From Candidatus Helarchaeota archaeon (GTDB lineage Archaea; Asgardarchaeota; Lokiarchaeia; Helarchaeales; HEL-GB-A), in contig JAEOSY010000074.1 in the NCBI GenBank assembly GCA_016840125.1, positions 1 to 6,730 of the forward strand: 6,730 nt of DNA, given 5' to 3'. A program made the translations under genes and the position numbers. Position 1 is the stretch's first letter. Every line of letters starts with the position of its first letter. Shown here in pieces: positions 2,659 to 6,730 of the stretch. Below the pieces are notes generated by a model. That model did no database searches. It was not told the DNA's origin and saw only the letters and a list, made by a program, of their open reading frames with translations.

Positions 2659-2721
2659 ATCGGTAAATCTTTAACTAAATGTAATTGATGAATTTTAAAC
2701 AATTAAAGGTCCAGTGGCTTA

Positions 2722-2751
2722 AGTTCTGGGCTTATAACCCAGTACGGCGAA
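2722..2751 (+). other. tRNA-Ile intron 1 (D-loop), about 30 nt
   Basis: This insert falls between tRNA positions 13/14 or 14/15. Its core is a hairpin CTGGG-CTTATAA-CCCAG (2726-2742), extended by GT/AC across a T-T mismatch. The flanking exon bases GCT (2717-2719) can pair with GGC (2746-2748), leaving TAA (2720-2722) as a 5' bulge and GAA (2749-2751) as a 3' bulge. This is a relaxed bulge-helix-bulge, the substrate of archaeal tRNA splicing endonuclease. The cut sites are uncertain by one base because of repeated A. The exon strand used here must refold into the D-stem after splicing. The hairpin also looks exactly like an anticodon arm with UAU (see findings). Confidence 0.75.
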
Positions 2752-2785
2752 GCTTGGTTAAAGCGCTCGGCTGATAACCGAGAGA

Positions 2786-2822
2786 AAGGGTCGAACTTTA
2801 GAAGTTTTAGCCCTTCTCTAAA
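2786..2822 (+). other. tRNA-Ile intron 2 (variable region), 35-37 nt
   Basis: AGAG (2781-2784) pairs with CTCT (2816-2819) as a 4-bp central helix. It is flanked by a 5' bulge AAA (2785-2787) and a 3' bulge AAA (2820-2822), close to a canonical 3-4-3 bulge-helix-bulge. The intron side continues as GGG/CCC (2788-2790 and 2811-2813) and an inner hairpin AACTT-TAG-AAGTT (2794-2806). The A-runs make the cut sites ambiguous. Removing 37 nt gives the standard 5-nt variable region AGATC, whereas cutting both bulges after the second A removes 35 nt and gives a 7-nt region. Confidence 0.75.
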
Positions 2823-2854
2823 TCGTGGGTCCGAATCCCACCTGGACCACCATC

Positions 2855-2861: not shown

Positions 2862-3612
2862 AAATTATAGGTAATTCGCCAGGCGGATAATACAGAATCT
2901 TGCCATTTTCTAATTGCTGCTCCCAGAAGAGCAGAGCTTTTTTATAAGCCTCTTGTTCGTATAATTCTGCAACCCCGGAAACGGAAGCTTGAATTTTTGT
3001 TTTCTTCTCGTAGGCTTGTCGTCGTAAAAGTAAGGCGCGTTCAAAGAAGGGGCGTTCGATCTCATCATGTTCATTAAGTCCTACAATCCCATTCCGTTTA
3101 TGAAAGGTGAGGAATTCACGGTACAATTCCTTGTGAAATAGTTTCTGTTTAGCTGCTGTTGTGTCCATGCGACTTGTTAGCCAGGCATGAATTTGGCGCG
3201 AAATAAAGATAGCATCGAGAAGTTGATCATCGGAAGCCCCCCAAAATTGGTTGGAATAACCTATGATTTGCTTGCCGATTTCATCAATTTCGGAGTCATG
3301 GTAAATAATAAAGTTGGAAGCGGTATTCAGAGTAGGAAACGTTTCGAGAAGATCCCAGAAGGTGAGCATTACAATTTTCGAGGTCTCCTTCCGTTTCTTG
3401 GTGTCTTCATCCTCCAGTGAAATCGAGAATTCAAAGGGCATGATGATTATAACCTTATCAAGATATTTGAGATGAATAAAGGGTTCTGAGATATAGATTA
3501 AGCGACCATCCTTTTCATCGATGGTTGGAATAAAGGGGATTATAATGTCTTTCAAAGTCGGAGCCCTCTTTATTGCGTGAGCTTTTTCTCGAGTTCTAAG
3601 GCTAATTCCCAC
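2860..3612 (-). CDS. Uncharacterised protein, partner gene of the TGT-like protein
   Basis: This encodes a soluble protein of up to 250 residues that I do not recognise. An N-terminal beta-rich half (residues 22-62, including IIIPFIPTID and KVIIIMPFEF) is followed by a mid region with several tryptophans and a mostly helical, charged C-terminal half (residues 125-235) ending in a short YYPPGELPII tail. No cysteine motif, membrane segment, P-loop or nuclease motif is visible. It is transcribed with the TGT-like gene immediately upstream, so a shared pathway or complex is likely. The start is uncertain. GTG at 3612 overlaps the upstream gene by 43 bp and has no SD. TTG at 3552 (230 residues) lies 15 nt after the upstream stop with GAGGG 8 nt before it, and is a strong alternative. 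The longer form is given to keep the full frame. Confidence 0.75.
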   Translation of the reverse strand: MGISLRTREKAHAIKRAPTLKDIIIPFIPTIDEKDGRLIYISEPFIHLKYLDKVIIIMPFEFSISLEDEDTKKRKETSKIVMLTFWDLLETFPTLNTASNFIIYHDSEIDEIGKQIIGYSNQFWGASDDQLLDAIFISRQIHAWLTSRMDTTAAKQKLFHKELYREFLTFHKRNGIVGLNEHDEIERPFFERALLLRRQAYEKKTKIQASVSGVAELYEQEAYKKALLFWEQQLENGKILYYPPGELPII

Positions 3613-4535
3613 TTTCGTTGATAATATTTGGATTTATTTTCAGAGACCTCGTTGTTAATAAGCTCTGCCAGCTCATATTTATCTGTACAAGCATTAATAG
3701 ACGAGACTCTCGCATTGAAGATTGCCAAATTATGCCTCACTCGCGCGAAGCGGTTTATATTAAACTCTTCAATCACATTTCCCATAAAATTTTGACAGAA
3801 TTCACAAGTACAATCCCACTTGGTCAGATCTCTCACCTTAAATCCTTTGCCTTTGGATGTATAGACGGTTCCTCTTGCTAATGCAGAAGTGACGGGCGTA
3901 CTTCCATCTACAGAAGTTGCACCCAGATAAGCTACAATTGGGAGAAGATATAAACTGGAGATGCCCGAAAGGTGGAGAGGCAGATCCCCTAATACGCTTC
4001 TAGCCCCAATAGTGAGTTCAAATATCGTTTCAATTCCTTTTTTCCGAAGTTTCGGGCTACTCAAAAACTCGGCAACGCCCCTGCAAAAGCATTCATGCCC
4101 TAACTCGCGAGCCTTCTGAAACCATGATCGTGCTTCTTCGTAGGTTGATACCTCCAACGAACAGTAGATCGGGACTTTTACTGTTTTGTTTTTCACCGCC
4201 CAATTGGCATTGTCCAGACATTGCTGAATCGCTTTCTCTCTTACCTTTCTATCCATATTCCAGTATTCATAATTGGTTAAGCTGGCTGGAGTATTGAGAG
4301 ACATGAAGCCTATAGTCTTGCCAGGAACATAAAACTTTTCCTGATTTCCGAGAACTGCATCAAGTGTTCGTTTTTTCGGGTCCAGATTCCACCAGTTTCC
4401 ACTATGTATAAAGTGTGAACCCGGATACACCTTTACGAGATCAATATTCTTAGGCGTGCATTTTTCATAACCGATCACGATCGGATTTGTCGAACCTAAC
4501 TTTGGGACAAATGTAATAAAGAATGTGAACTCCAT
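3570..4535 (-). CDS. Divergent tRNA-guanine transglycosylase (TGT)-fold protein
   Basis: This encodes a 321-residue protein of the queuine/archaeosine transglycosylase TIM-barrel superfamily. The zinc site is clear: DCTCEFC (C242, C244, C247) and H268 in VRHNLAIFN. Upstream, LHLSGIS (187-193) matches the family HxFGxG loop, and GATSVDGS places D210 where the nucleophilic aspartate lies, 32 residues before the first zinc cysteine, as in archaeal TGTs. The first catalytic aspartate of the family's DSGG motif is not obvious. HSGNWW (44-49) is the best positional match, with His for Asp. There is no PUA domain and the N-terminus is short, so it is not a full-length archaeosine TGT. It could modify tRNA, modify DNA like DpdA paralogs, or be a catalytically altered subunit like eukaryotic QTRT2. 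It is the first gene of a two-gene unit with its own TATA box. Confidence 0.8.
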   Translation of the reverse strand: MEFTFFITFVPKLGSTNPIVIGYEKCTPKNIDLVKVYPGSHFIHSGNWWNLDPKKRTLDAVLGNQEKFYVPGKTIGFMSLNTPASLTNYEYWNMDRKVREKAIQQCLDNANWAVKNKTVKVPIYCSLEVSTYEEARSWFQKARELGHECFCRGVAEFLSSPKLRKKGIETIFELTIGARSVLGDLPLHLSGISSLYLLPIVAYLGATSVDGSTPVTSALARGTVYTSKGKGFKVRDLTKWDCTCEFCQNFMGNVIEEFNINRFARVRHNLAIFNARVSSINACTDKYELAELINNEVSENKSKYYQRKWELALELEKKLTQ

Positions 4536-4688: not shown

Positions 4689-4731
4689 CCTCAGCGGGAT
4701 AGGGTAGTCAGGAGATCCCACGGGGCTCATA

Positions 4732-4741
4732 TTTTCGAGAT
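4732..4741 (+). other. Initiator tRNA intron 1 at 37/38, only 10 nt
   Basis: The loop must mature to CTCATAA, which fixes the intron to 10 nt between A37 (4731) and A38 (4742). CTC (4726-4728) can pair with GAG (4737-4739). This leaves ATA (4740-4742) as a 3' bulge and the 5' cut in an 8-nt loop, a bulge-helix-loop rather than a full bulge-helix-bulge. Confidence 0.8.
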
Positions 4742-4763
4742 ACCCCGAGATCGGTGGTTCAAA

Positions 4764-4796
4764 ACTCACCAGCGGCTGCCTGGTGCAGTGGACAAA
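4764..4796 (+). other. Initiator tRNA intron 2 in the T-loop (59/60), 33 nt
   Basis: TTCA of the T-loop (4758-4761) pairs with TGGA (4789-4792) as a 4-bp central helix with one G-U. The 5' bulge is AAA (4762-4764), and the predicted cut after its second base matches the exon end needed. The 3' bulge CAAAT (4793-4797) is larger than usual. The intron core is a hairpin CACCAG-CGGCTGC-CTGGTG (4767-4785) plus CT/AG pairing. A-runs allow the splice sites to slide between positions 57 and 60 with the same product. Confidence 0.8.
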
Positions 4797-4855
4797 TCCA
4801 CCTCCCGCTACCTTTTAAAAAACAACCGTATTCTAAACAAATTGGAGATTATCAG

Positions 4856-5135: not shown

Positions 5136-6113
5136 TTGAAGAAAATCAAAATATGCTTAAAAGGAGAATTTCCGACTGTAAAACAATTAAAAAAAATTGG
5201 GCGGAACGACTTGGTTCGTGTTATTCATAAAAAATACGGGGGTTTTAGAGAAGTCAGAAGGAGATTGAATCGTGAAAAAATAAAATTAGACGCGAATTAT
5301 TTTGAAATAATTGGTACTAAAGAAAAAGCATATTGGTTGGGATTTCTCTTTGCGGATGGTTGGATGTATATCAGAAAAAATAAACCTGATACTAGACAGC
5401 TGGGAATTGAAATCCATAAAAAGGATGAGGGGATAATAGATCGGTTCTTGAAGAGTTTAAAAGCAGAAGGAATAGAAAAACACTATAGGAAAAATAATGA
5501 TATGGTGTATATTAAGGTTGGAAACAAGAAACTTACAAAAGACCTAATAAACCATGGAGTAGTTCCAAATAAATCGAAAACGATAAAATTCCCTAACCTA
5601 AATTCACGTGAGTTAGAGCTCGCCTTTTTGCTAGGATATTATGATGGAGATGGAAAAAAGGATACAACAAGAATTGCTTCAGGAAGTAAAAAATTTCTAG
5701 AAAAAATTAAAGAAAAATTTCAATTAGAATTTAAAATTACTAAGCAACAAACAAAAGGGATTACTTATAGAATGATTTTAGGAGCAGAACTGTTTAATGA
5801 AATGATGGATAATTATTCGATGTCCTCTCCTAATAAACGCCGATACTTTTATACGAAGGAAGATCAATTGATTGCTTTCATTGAGGGAGGGAAATCTTAT
5901 AGGTCTAAAGTGGAAAAAGGACAAATAAATATTGAGAAGTGGCAAAATATTACAAAGGAATTCCTTACTAAACTTGTTTGGGAAAAACCATCTACTCAAA
6001 TTGCTCTTGAATATGGTATATCACCAAGTAGTATTATTAAAAAATGTCACAAATGGAATATCTTAAAACCCCCGCGAGGATATTGGGCTAAAATTAAAAG
6101 CAAAAAAGTATAA
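5136..6113 (+). CDS. LAGLIDADG homing endonuclease
   Basis: This encodes 325 residues from TTG at 5136. It carries two LAGLIDADG motifs, LGFLFADGW (68-76, acidic residue D74) and LLGYYDGDG (165-173, acidic D172), 98 residues apart. That is the arrangement of single-chain endonucleases that cut long asymmetric DNA sites. An N-terminal module FPTVKQLKKIGRNDL...GGFREVRRRL (12-44) is a known accessory DNA-binding element. The C-terminus has a helix-turn-helix (about 279-307) ending in KPPRGYWAKI (311-320). The active-site aspartates are present and the frame is intact, so it may be active. No splice-domain motifs of an intein are seen, so it is free-standing. TTG is a poor start with no SD, and the frame is open upstream to 4992. 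The stop overlaps an AAGGAGGT that follows. It lies 325 nt downstream of the intron-bearing initiator tRNA. Confidence 0.9.
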   Translation: MKKIKICLKGEFPTVKQLKKIGRNDLVRVIHKKYGGFREVRRRLNREKIKLDANYFEIIGTKEKAYWLGFLFADGWMYIRKNKPDTRQLGIEIHKKDEGIIDRFLKSLKAEGIEKHYRKNNDMVYIKVGNKKLTKDLINHGVVPNKSKTIKFPNLNSRELELAFLLGYYDGDGKKDTTRIASGSKKFLEKIKEKFQLEFKITKQQTKGITYRMILGAELFNEMMDNYSMSSPNKRRYFYTKEDQLIAFIEGGKSYRSKVEKGQINIEKWQNITKEFLTKLVWEKPSTQIALEYGISPSSIIKKCHKWNILKPPRGYWAKIKSKKV

Positions 6114-6283: not shown

Positions 6284-6730
6284 ATGATAGAAAATAGGTG
6301 TAATATATATCAAAATAATAAAAGTGAATCCTTCTTGACAGATGATAAAGTATTATATATTGCACTAGGACGAATTCAAGGTATCACACTGAAGAAAATT
6401 TTACTGTTAGTAGAAAAAGGGTTAAGATCGCCACAAGAAATTATTGAAGCTCCTGTAAAAGATTTAAACAATGTCTTAAAGAAGGATGAAGTTATTGAAA
6501 AAGTTAGAGAACTAAATAACCCAGAAAATAAAAGAGTTTCAAATATTAAATCAATGATTAATTTATGTAAGAGAAAAAAGATTAATGTAATAACTTATTT
6601 TGATGACAATTATCCACTTATGCTCAAAAGGGTAGAAGATCCGCCTCTTTATTTATTTATTAAGGGGTCATTTTTGCCTCAAGATGAAAAATCATTATCA
6701 ATTATTGGAACCCGAAATCCATCATATTAT
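6284..6730 (+). CDS. dprA: DprA/Smf-like DNA-processing protein, 5' part (runs off the window)
   Basis: The first 149 residues are visible and the frame is open to the window edge. Residues 20-70 form an N-terminal helical region resembling the helix-hairpin-helix/SAM-like domain of DprA (IALGRIQGITLKKILLLVEKG). Residues 109-128 match the family signature NYPLMLKRVEDPPLYLFIKG. Residues 138-149 (LSIIGTRNPSYY) start the Rossmann-like domain with the IGTR loop that binds single-stranded DNA. In bacteria DprA loads RecA on incoming DNA during transformation, while Smf-like homologs without that role are widespread. The archaeal function is not established. The ATG at 6284 is fixed by an in-frame stop TAA just upstream (6278-6280). 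The gene has its own promoter, so it is probably not part of the endonuclease unit. Confidence 0.87.
   Translation, partial: MIENRCNIYQNNKSESFLTDDKVLYIALGRIQGITLKKILLLVEKGLRSPQEIIEAPVKDLNNVLKKDEVIEKVRELNNPENKRVSNIKSMINLCKRKKINVITYFDDNYPLMLKRVEDPPLYLFIKGSFLPQDEKSLSIIGTRNPSYY

Follow-up and report, generated by a model that had tools for sequence, protein, structure and literature searches.

The tRNA-Ile(GAU) gene and its introns

The window, by which we mean the whole stretch of 6,730 nucleotides that was analysed, carries a tRNA-Ile(GAU) gene that is interrupted by two introns. The features of the gene, with the evidence for each in brackets, are as follows.

2708..2852, + strand: tRNA-Ile(GAU) gene with two introns and an encoded CCA (sequence, Rfam, relatives, spliced form)
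2708..2721, + strand: exon 1, comprising the acceptor 5' strand, positions 8-9, the D-stem 5' strand and A14 (homology to the intronless tRNA in locus L008)
2722..2751, + strand: D-loop intron of 30 nt at position 14/15 (removal gives GGCTTAGCTTGGTTAAAGC, matching relatives)
2726..2742, + strand: intron hairpin CTGGG-CTTATAA-CCCAG, an anticodon-arm lookalike (sequence, arm comparison, pairing probability)
2752..2785, + strand: exon 2, comprising the D-loop 3' part, the D-stem 3' strand, the anticodon arm and the start of the variable region (relatives, spliced form)
2766..2782, + strand: true anticodon arm CTCGG-CTGATAA-CCGAG, anticodon GAU (sequence, Rfam)
2786..2822, + strand: variable-region intron of 37 nt (removal gives AGATC, matching relatives)
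2823..2852, + strand: exon 3, comprising the end of the variable region, the T arm, the acceptor 3' strand, A73 and CCA (sequence, Rfam, spliced form)

The acceptor strands lie at 2708-2714 and 2842-2848, the T arm at 2825-2841 and the encoded CCA at 2850-2852. ARAGORN made no call for a tRNA-Ile(GAU) at 2708-2852, and Rfam gave a partial match of 27.8 bits, against a threshold of 29. When 2722-2751 and 2786-2822 are removed, at sites chosen by homology, a 78-nt tRNA is left. It shares 76 of 78 positions with the gene of genome G002, spliced in the same way, and 68 of 78 with the intronless tRNA of G004. The first-pass annotation had placed an intron in the D-loop of this gene, and the match of the spliced product to its relatives bears this out. 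The borders of that intron are ambiguous by 1 nt, with 2721-2750 and 2722-2751 giving an identical product.

Position 14/15 is outside the 37/38 site, and removal of the intron nevertheless yields a canonical tRNA that matches relatives. In these respects the gene resembles those with non-canonical introns in Thermoproteales, Thaumarchaeota, Atabeyarchaeia and Freyarchaeia, which are small, lie outside 37/38, occur several to a gene and leave a normal tRNA when removed; it differs from them in having an intron hairpin that resembles an anticodon arm and in its relaxed splice motif. In three complete genomes from two other Asgard lineages, 92-95% of the tRNA genes are reported to bear introns (PMC11291895).

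The predicted fold of the precursor consists of a helix (GGCTT/AAGCT), an uneven (2/4) internal loop and then the hairpin. A strict 3-4-3 bulge-helix-bulge was not found at the splice sites of the D-loop intron in this fold, and the predicted motif is a relaxed one rather than the textbook form; relaxed motifs are reported to be accepted by some endonucleases (PMC12397907). The pairing probability of the hairpin stem in the predicted precursor is 0.989-0.999, and that of the true anticodon arm is 0.001 or less. The same prediction gives no cloverleaf for the spliced tRNA or for intronless tRNAs, and because the program misfolds these as well, the predicted precursor fold is weak evidence.

Several other features were seen in the window. 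The 3' part of a tRNA-Ala(CGC) occupies positions 1-45, at the start of the contig; G002 and G001 (loci L153 and L121) likewise have tRNA-Ala and tRNA-Ile(GAU) side by side, and the distance between the two genes is about 2.7 kb in the window versus about 0.1 kb in G002. An initiator-Met-like tRNA gene at 4693-4810 (AGCGGGA ... CTCATA ... TCCCGCTA) has, by eye, an apparent anticodon-loop intron and a T-loop intron. A LAGLIDADG endonuclease ORF (5136-6113) stands free between genes; after it comes the beginning of a DprA-like gene (6284-6730). The ORF at 3570-4535 on the minus strand (321 aa) has 18 homologues besides itself at 68-79% identity, several of them in Helarchaeota MAGs.

Resemblance of the hairpin to isoleucine anticodon arms

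The hairpin consists of CTGGG (2726-2730), CTTATAA (2731-2737) and CCCAG (2738-2742), exactly as first annotated. It has the form of a tRNA-Ile(UAU) anticodon arm: a 5-bp stem and a 7-nt loop with U33, the anticodon UAU and A37, and also A38. With the GAU arm of the gene itself, 23 nt downstream, it shares 14 of 17 positions. Identity to the spliced arm of the tRNA-Ile(UAU) genes in G001 and G004 (CTGGC-CTTATAA-GCCAG) is higher, at 15 of 17 and all 7 loop positions, and the sole difference is one flipped base pair. The earlier description of a very good isoleucine anticodon-arm lookalike is therefore apt.

The role of chance was assessed by comparing random perfect 5-bp/7-nt hairpins with 48 anticodon arms from the clade, five of them isoleucine arms. 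At least 15 of 17 positions matched any of the 48 arms in 0.06-0.14% of random hairpins, and matched the five isoleucine arms in 0.01-0.05%; both are rates per hairpin, to be set beside a match that was picked from a very large scan. Among 40,000 shuffled introns, 26 reached 14 of 17 and none reached 15.

As a yardstick we used the tRNA genes of at least 85 nt among those called by ARAGORN (69 of 117) in loci from four Helarchaeales genomes and G042; most bear introns, and Ser, Leu and SeC genes can reach 85 nt without one. Of the 31 perfect 5-bp/7-nt hairpins in these 69 genes, fifteen agree with an arm of the library at 12 or more of 17 positions, and on reading all fifteen are true anticodon arms; the other 16 score 11 or less, and at least three of them are also real anticodon arms on reading. 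Since the yardstick hairpins that are not arms reach 11 of 17 at most, the window hairpin scores like a real arm. The hairpin is unusual for a given intron, yet a scan of many windows will meet such cases.

Variation of the intron within Helarchaeales

None of the four genomes of the order that formed the comparison set (G001, G002, G003 and G004) has the CTTATAA loop in its tRNA-Ile(GAU) gene. G002 has a D-loop intron at the identical site with a different hairpin, GTGCA-AAA-TGCAC. Between the window and G002, 16 of 32 aligned columns are identical in the D-loop introns and 23 of 38 in the variable-region introns. On reading, G001 carries two introns in its tRNA-Ile(GAU) gene, one further 3' in the D-loop and the other in the anticodon arm; the gene of G003 has a D-stem intron, and that of G004 has no intron. 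The 3' border GGYGA-A-GCYTGG is common to the window tRNA-Ile, a tRNA with a CAU loop in G002 and the tRNA-Ile(UAU) of G080, with a different hairpin in each; judged from these sequences, the splice context at the D-loop site is less variable than the hairpin that it encloses.

A locus of G001 (L117, G001:C3:622500-632000) has 19 ARAGORN tRNA calls on one strand, many of them unusual and intron-rich. This cluster may belong to a mobile element.

TiaS and the reading of AUA

AUA is in use in the window, where it accounts for 37 of the 161 isoleucine codons in eight ORFs. The first-pass annotation had noted that Archaea normally read this codon with a modified CAU tRNA, which depends on TiaS. 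For this clade that route is not borne out. TiaS (PF08489) was found in none of the four Helarchaeales genomes and exceeded the cut-off in one of the 83 genomes of the class (G081), leaving 82 without a match over the cut-off. In the phylum as a whole 113 of 227 genomes were positive, 112 of them among the 144 outside the class, as were all four archaeal control genomes. A further 15 class genomes gave only sub-threshold matches, with E up to 0.1. Two of these loci were read, and their frames resemble what we take to be an aconitase and an acyltransferase domain; because these two look like other proteins, the sub-threshold matches were treated as chance. The CAU tRNAs that were encountered, in a reading that was not exhaustive, were taken as initiator or elongator Met.

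tRNA-Ile(UAU) genes in the class

Genes for tRNA-Ile(UAU) were read in sequence in 69 of the 83 class genomes, with near-identical genomes counted separately (for example loci L204-L233, L236-L252 except L246, L283-L303, L254 and L256). None of these 69 genomes has a TiaS match over the cut-off. UAU is thus a genuine AUA-type anticodon in the clade, in line with the first-pass remark that UAU also decodes isoleucine, and separate tRNA-Ile(UAU) genes are present in G001 and G004.

The search combined one pattern, an RNA model built from ten genes (R1) and a second pattern for Helarchaeales, each followed by reading; 67 of the 69 came from RNA-model matches and the remaining two are G001 and G004. 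Model R1 missed the Helarchaeales genes. Its matches in G001 and one in G004 showed no tRNA on reading, and a second weak match in G004, at C115, overlaps a place read as showing no tRNA. The pattern AGCGCNSGTCTTATA found the genes in G001 and G004 and gave no UAU gene in G002 or G003. An arm-like match in G002, GGCGGCTTATAACCCAG, has no tRNA features around it and by eye resembles part of a protein gene. The R1 match in G079, a CAU-loop tRNA, was left out of the count.

The search found no tRNA-Ile(UAU) in 14 of the 83 genomes (G002, G003, G009, G010, G016, G017, G044, G050, G056, G062, G071, G079, G081 and G083), perhaps because the assemblies are incomplete or the genes too interrupted. G081, the sole class genome with TiaS over the cut-off, is one of the 14.

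Seven genomes outside the class also gave model matches. Four of them (G173, G174, G176 and G177, at L281, L282, L278 and L280) hold intron-bearing genes like tRNA-Ile(UAU), with the arm CCGGC-CTTATA, and have no TiaS match. In G122 and G123 the matches are tRNAs with CAU loops, and both genomes have TiaS. The seventh, G195 (L279), has an intronless tRNA with a CTTATAA loop, and TiaS; this tRNA looks bacterial and is possibly contamination.

When spliced UAU tRNAs were compared with the intronless tRNAs at hand, those of G011 and G013 were closest to tRNA-Ile(GAU), and that of G008 scored one point higher with a tRNA-Arg.

The tRNA-Ile(UAU) genes are interrupted in the anticodon loop. A direct test showed that no uninterrupted UAU arm is possible in 68 of the 69 loci. 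The one flagged, L251, makes four of five pairs, with G-U, and has a perfect 3' strand further downstream, and was counted as interrupted. A script set to look for the 3' strand at a distance of 20 nt or more placed it in 63 of the 69, with introns of about 31-80 nt; in the remaining six the intron is visible by eye. In an alignment of the 60 distinct sequences, the intron has a 7-bp stem in which 52-57 of 57-58 sequences are paired at each position, and most positions use several kinds of base pair; the stem was predicted from the alignment in which the pairs were then counted, with relatedness uncontrolled. In 50 of 63 cases pairing with U33-U36 is possible for the final 14 nt of the intron, versus 44% in shuffles. 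Individual introns (for example at L222, L228, L287 and L299) display the covarying 7-bp stem together with conserved single positions. The stem and conserved positions suggest constraint beyond splicing.

Origin of the hairpin

We consider it probable that the sequence at 2722-2751 is an ordinary non-canonical intron, with a lineage-specific hairpin that has no decoding role and that resembles an isoleucine arm either by chance or as a decaying copy. By homology, the tRNA splicing endonuclease would be expected to excise the intron at 14/15 before the tRNA becomes functional, and the hairpin would be the fast-changing tip of the intron. Its likeness to a UAU arm would then be specific to the lineage of the window and would play no part in decoding. 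AUA would most likely be read by a separate tRNA-Ile(UAU) gene, seen in relatives and presumed for the host; with such a tRNA available in the clade, decoding does not require the hairpin. Against this reading stand the 15 of 17 identities with a complete loop match, the chance rate of about 0.001 or less per hairpin and the strict bulge-helix-bulge that was not found. The likeness may reflect either coincidence or the decay of a copied isoleucine anticodon arm.

The first-pass annotation had listed possible functions for the mimic, of which there is no sign, and had said that it would be a coincidence if the loop varied among relatives and the genome had a normal CAU tRNA with TiaS. The loop does vary. 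TiaS was not found in the four Helarchaeales genomes, and a dedicated UAU tRNA is present instead in G001 and G004, which makes the mimic just as unnecessary.

A copying origin, with the hairpin as the relic of an isoleucine anticodon arm, derived either from local duplication of the GAU arm or from an RNA-mediated copy of the spliced UAU arm, is the strongest of the alternatives, and we think it unlikely. It would account for the 14 identities with the gene's own arm and the 15 with the Helarchaeales UAU arm, including the compensated pair flip and the identical loop, a score reached by none of the 40,000 shuffled introns, and for other archaea there are reports of tRNA introns that transpose or are inserted by mobile elements (PMC3293823, PMC4090602). 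A copy of the UAU arm must come from spliced RNA, because an intron divides that arm in the DNA of the relatives that were read. The relative with exons identical at 76 of 78 positions, however, has no trace of the hairpin, so that a copy would be recent and yet already two to three bases off; moreover, there is no convincing similarity beyond the arm, and the match was picked from a very large scan. An extended tandem duplication of the D-loop and anticodon arm (21 of 28 by eye) was also considered and rejected, because its upstream part belongs to exon sequence that tRNA-Ile genes have in common.

It is very improbable that the hairpin works in the precursor as a decoy or modification substrate for IleRS, the t6A37 machinery or a pseudouridine synthase. 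Its loop and stem look complete (U33, UAU, A37 and A38), the precursor prediction gives the stem a high pairing probability, and modification of the anticodon that depends on an intron is known from yeast tRNA-Ile(UAU) (PMC11408192). The loop is missing, however, from tRNA-Ile(GAU) in all four genomes of the order, and with a single sequence in hand no covariation speaks for it. A conserved role is not supported and was rejected, because the nearest relative does not have the loop.

We give hardly any credence to a gene with two products, in which alternative processing would put the upstream arm in place of the normal one and so make a tRNA-Ile(UAU). Two complete anticodon arms are indeed enclosed by one pair of acceptor strands, but the 11 nt between acceptor strand and hairpin leave no space for a D arm, the reason for which this product was rejected; moreover, dedicated tRNA-Ile(UAU) genes were read in most genomes of the class, and the nearest relative is without the loop.

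Discussion

The switch in AUA decoding is a more interesting result than the hairpin that led to it. Archaea have been described as nearly without tRNA-UAU and as using agmatidine for AUA, with tRNA-UAU reported from Korarchaeum and Nanoarchaeum, 2 of 167 archaea (PMC6000648; also PMC8450103), and a review describes UAU as an anticodon that prokaryotes generally do not use (PMC8879553). Most of the genomes examined in this Asgard class seem to depart from this rule, and the intron of their UAU gene is conserved in structure. No report of an AUA switch in Asgard archaea or Lokiarchaeia was among the matches listed in our literature search, which left most subscription papers and bioRxiv preprints outside its range.

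The class resembles Korarchaeum and Nanoarchaeum in that AUA is most likely read by a UAU tRNA, and the Korarchaeum gene is also reported to have an intron and to resemble its own tRNA-Ile(GAU) (PMC6000648, PMC8450103). The scale is different, two species in those cases and 69 of 83 genomes of one Asgard class in ours, and the window hairpin, unlike the Korarchaeum and Nanoarchaeum genes, is only a lookalike inside the intron of another tRNA. A second parallel is with yeast, where the intron of tRNA-Ile(UAU) is reported to be needed for pseudouridines 34 and 36, made by Pus1 (PMC11408192); the tRNA-Ile(UAU) genes of the window's relatives are likewise interrupted in the anticodon loop by an intron. 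This likeness lies in the interruption by an intron, and it concerns the real UAU gene of the relatives and not the mimic in the window.

A bolder scheme, which we also think unlikely, is that the whole Asgard class dropped agmatidine, that the conserved UAU-gene intron is needed for modification of U34 and U36 as in yeast, and that the hairpin is a stray copy of the spliced UAU arm, made from RNA and lodged as an intron in tRNA-Ile(GAU). In this scheme the lack of a TiaS match over the cut-off in 82 of 83 genomes and the UAU genes in 69 of 83 are observations, and modification and copying are proposals.

For the annotation of tRNA introns the hairpin is a caution, in that intron stems may look like complete anticodon arms without being used. 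For the class, the data suggest that many genomes read AUA in an unusual, eukaryote-like way. If the intron-dependent scheme were true, eukaryote-like reading of AUA that depends on an intron would exist in archaea, and it can now be tested whether this is an archaeal parallel to, or the root of, the eukaryotic system with its UAU tRNA and intron-dependent pseudouridines.
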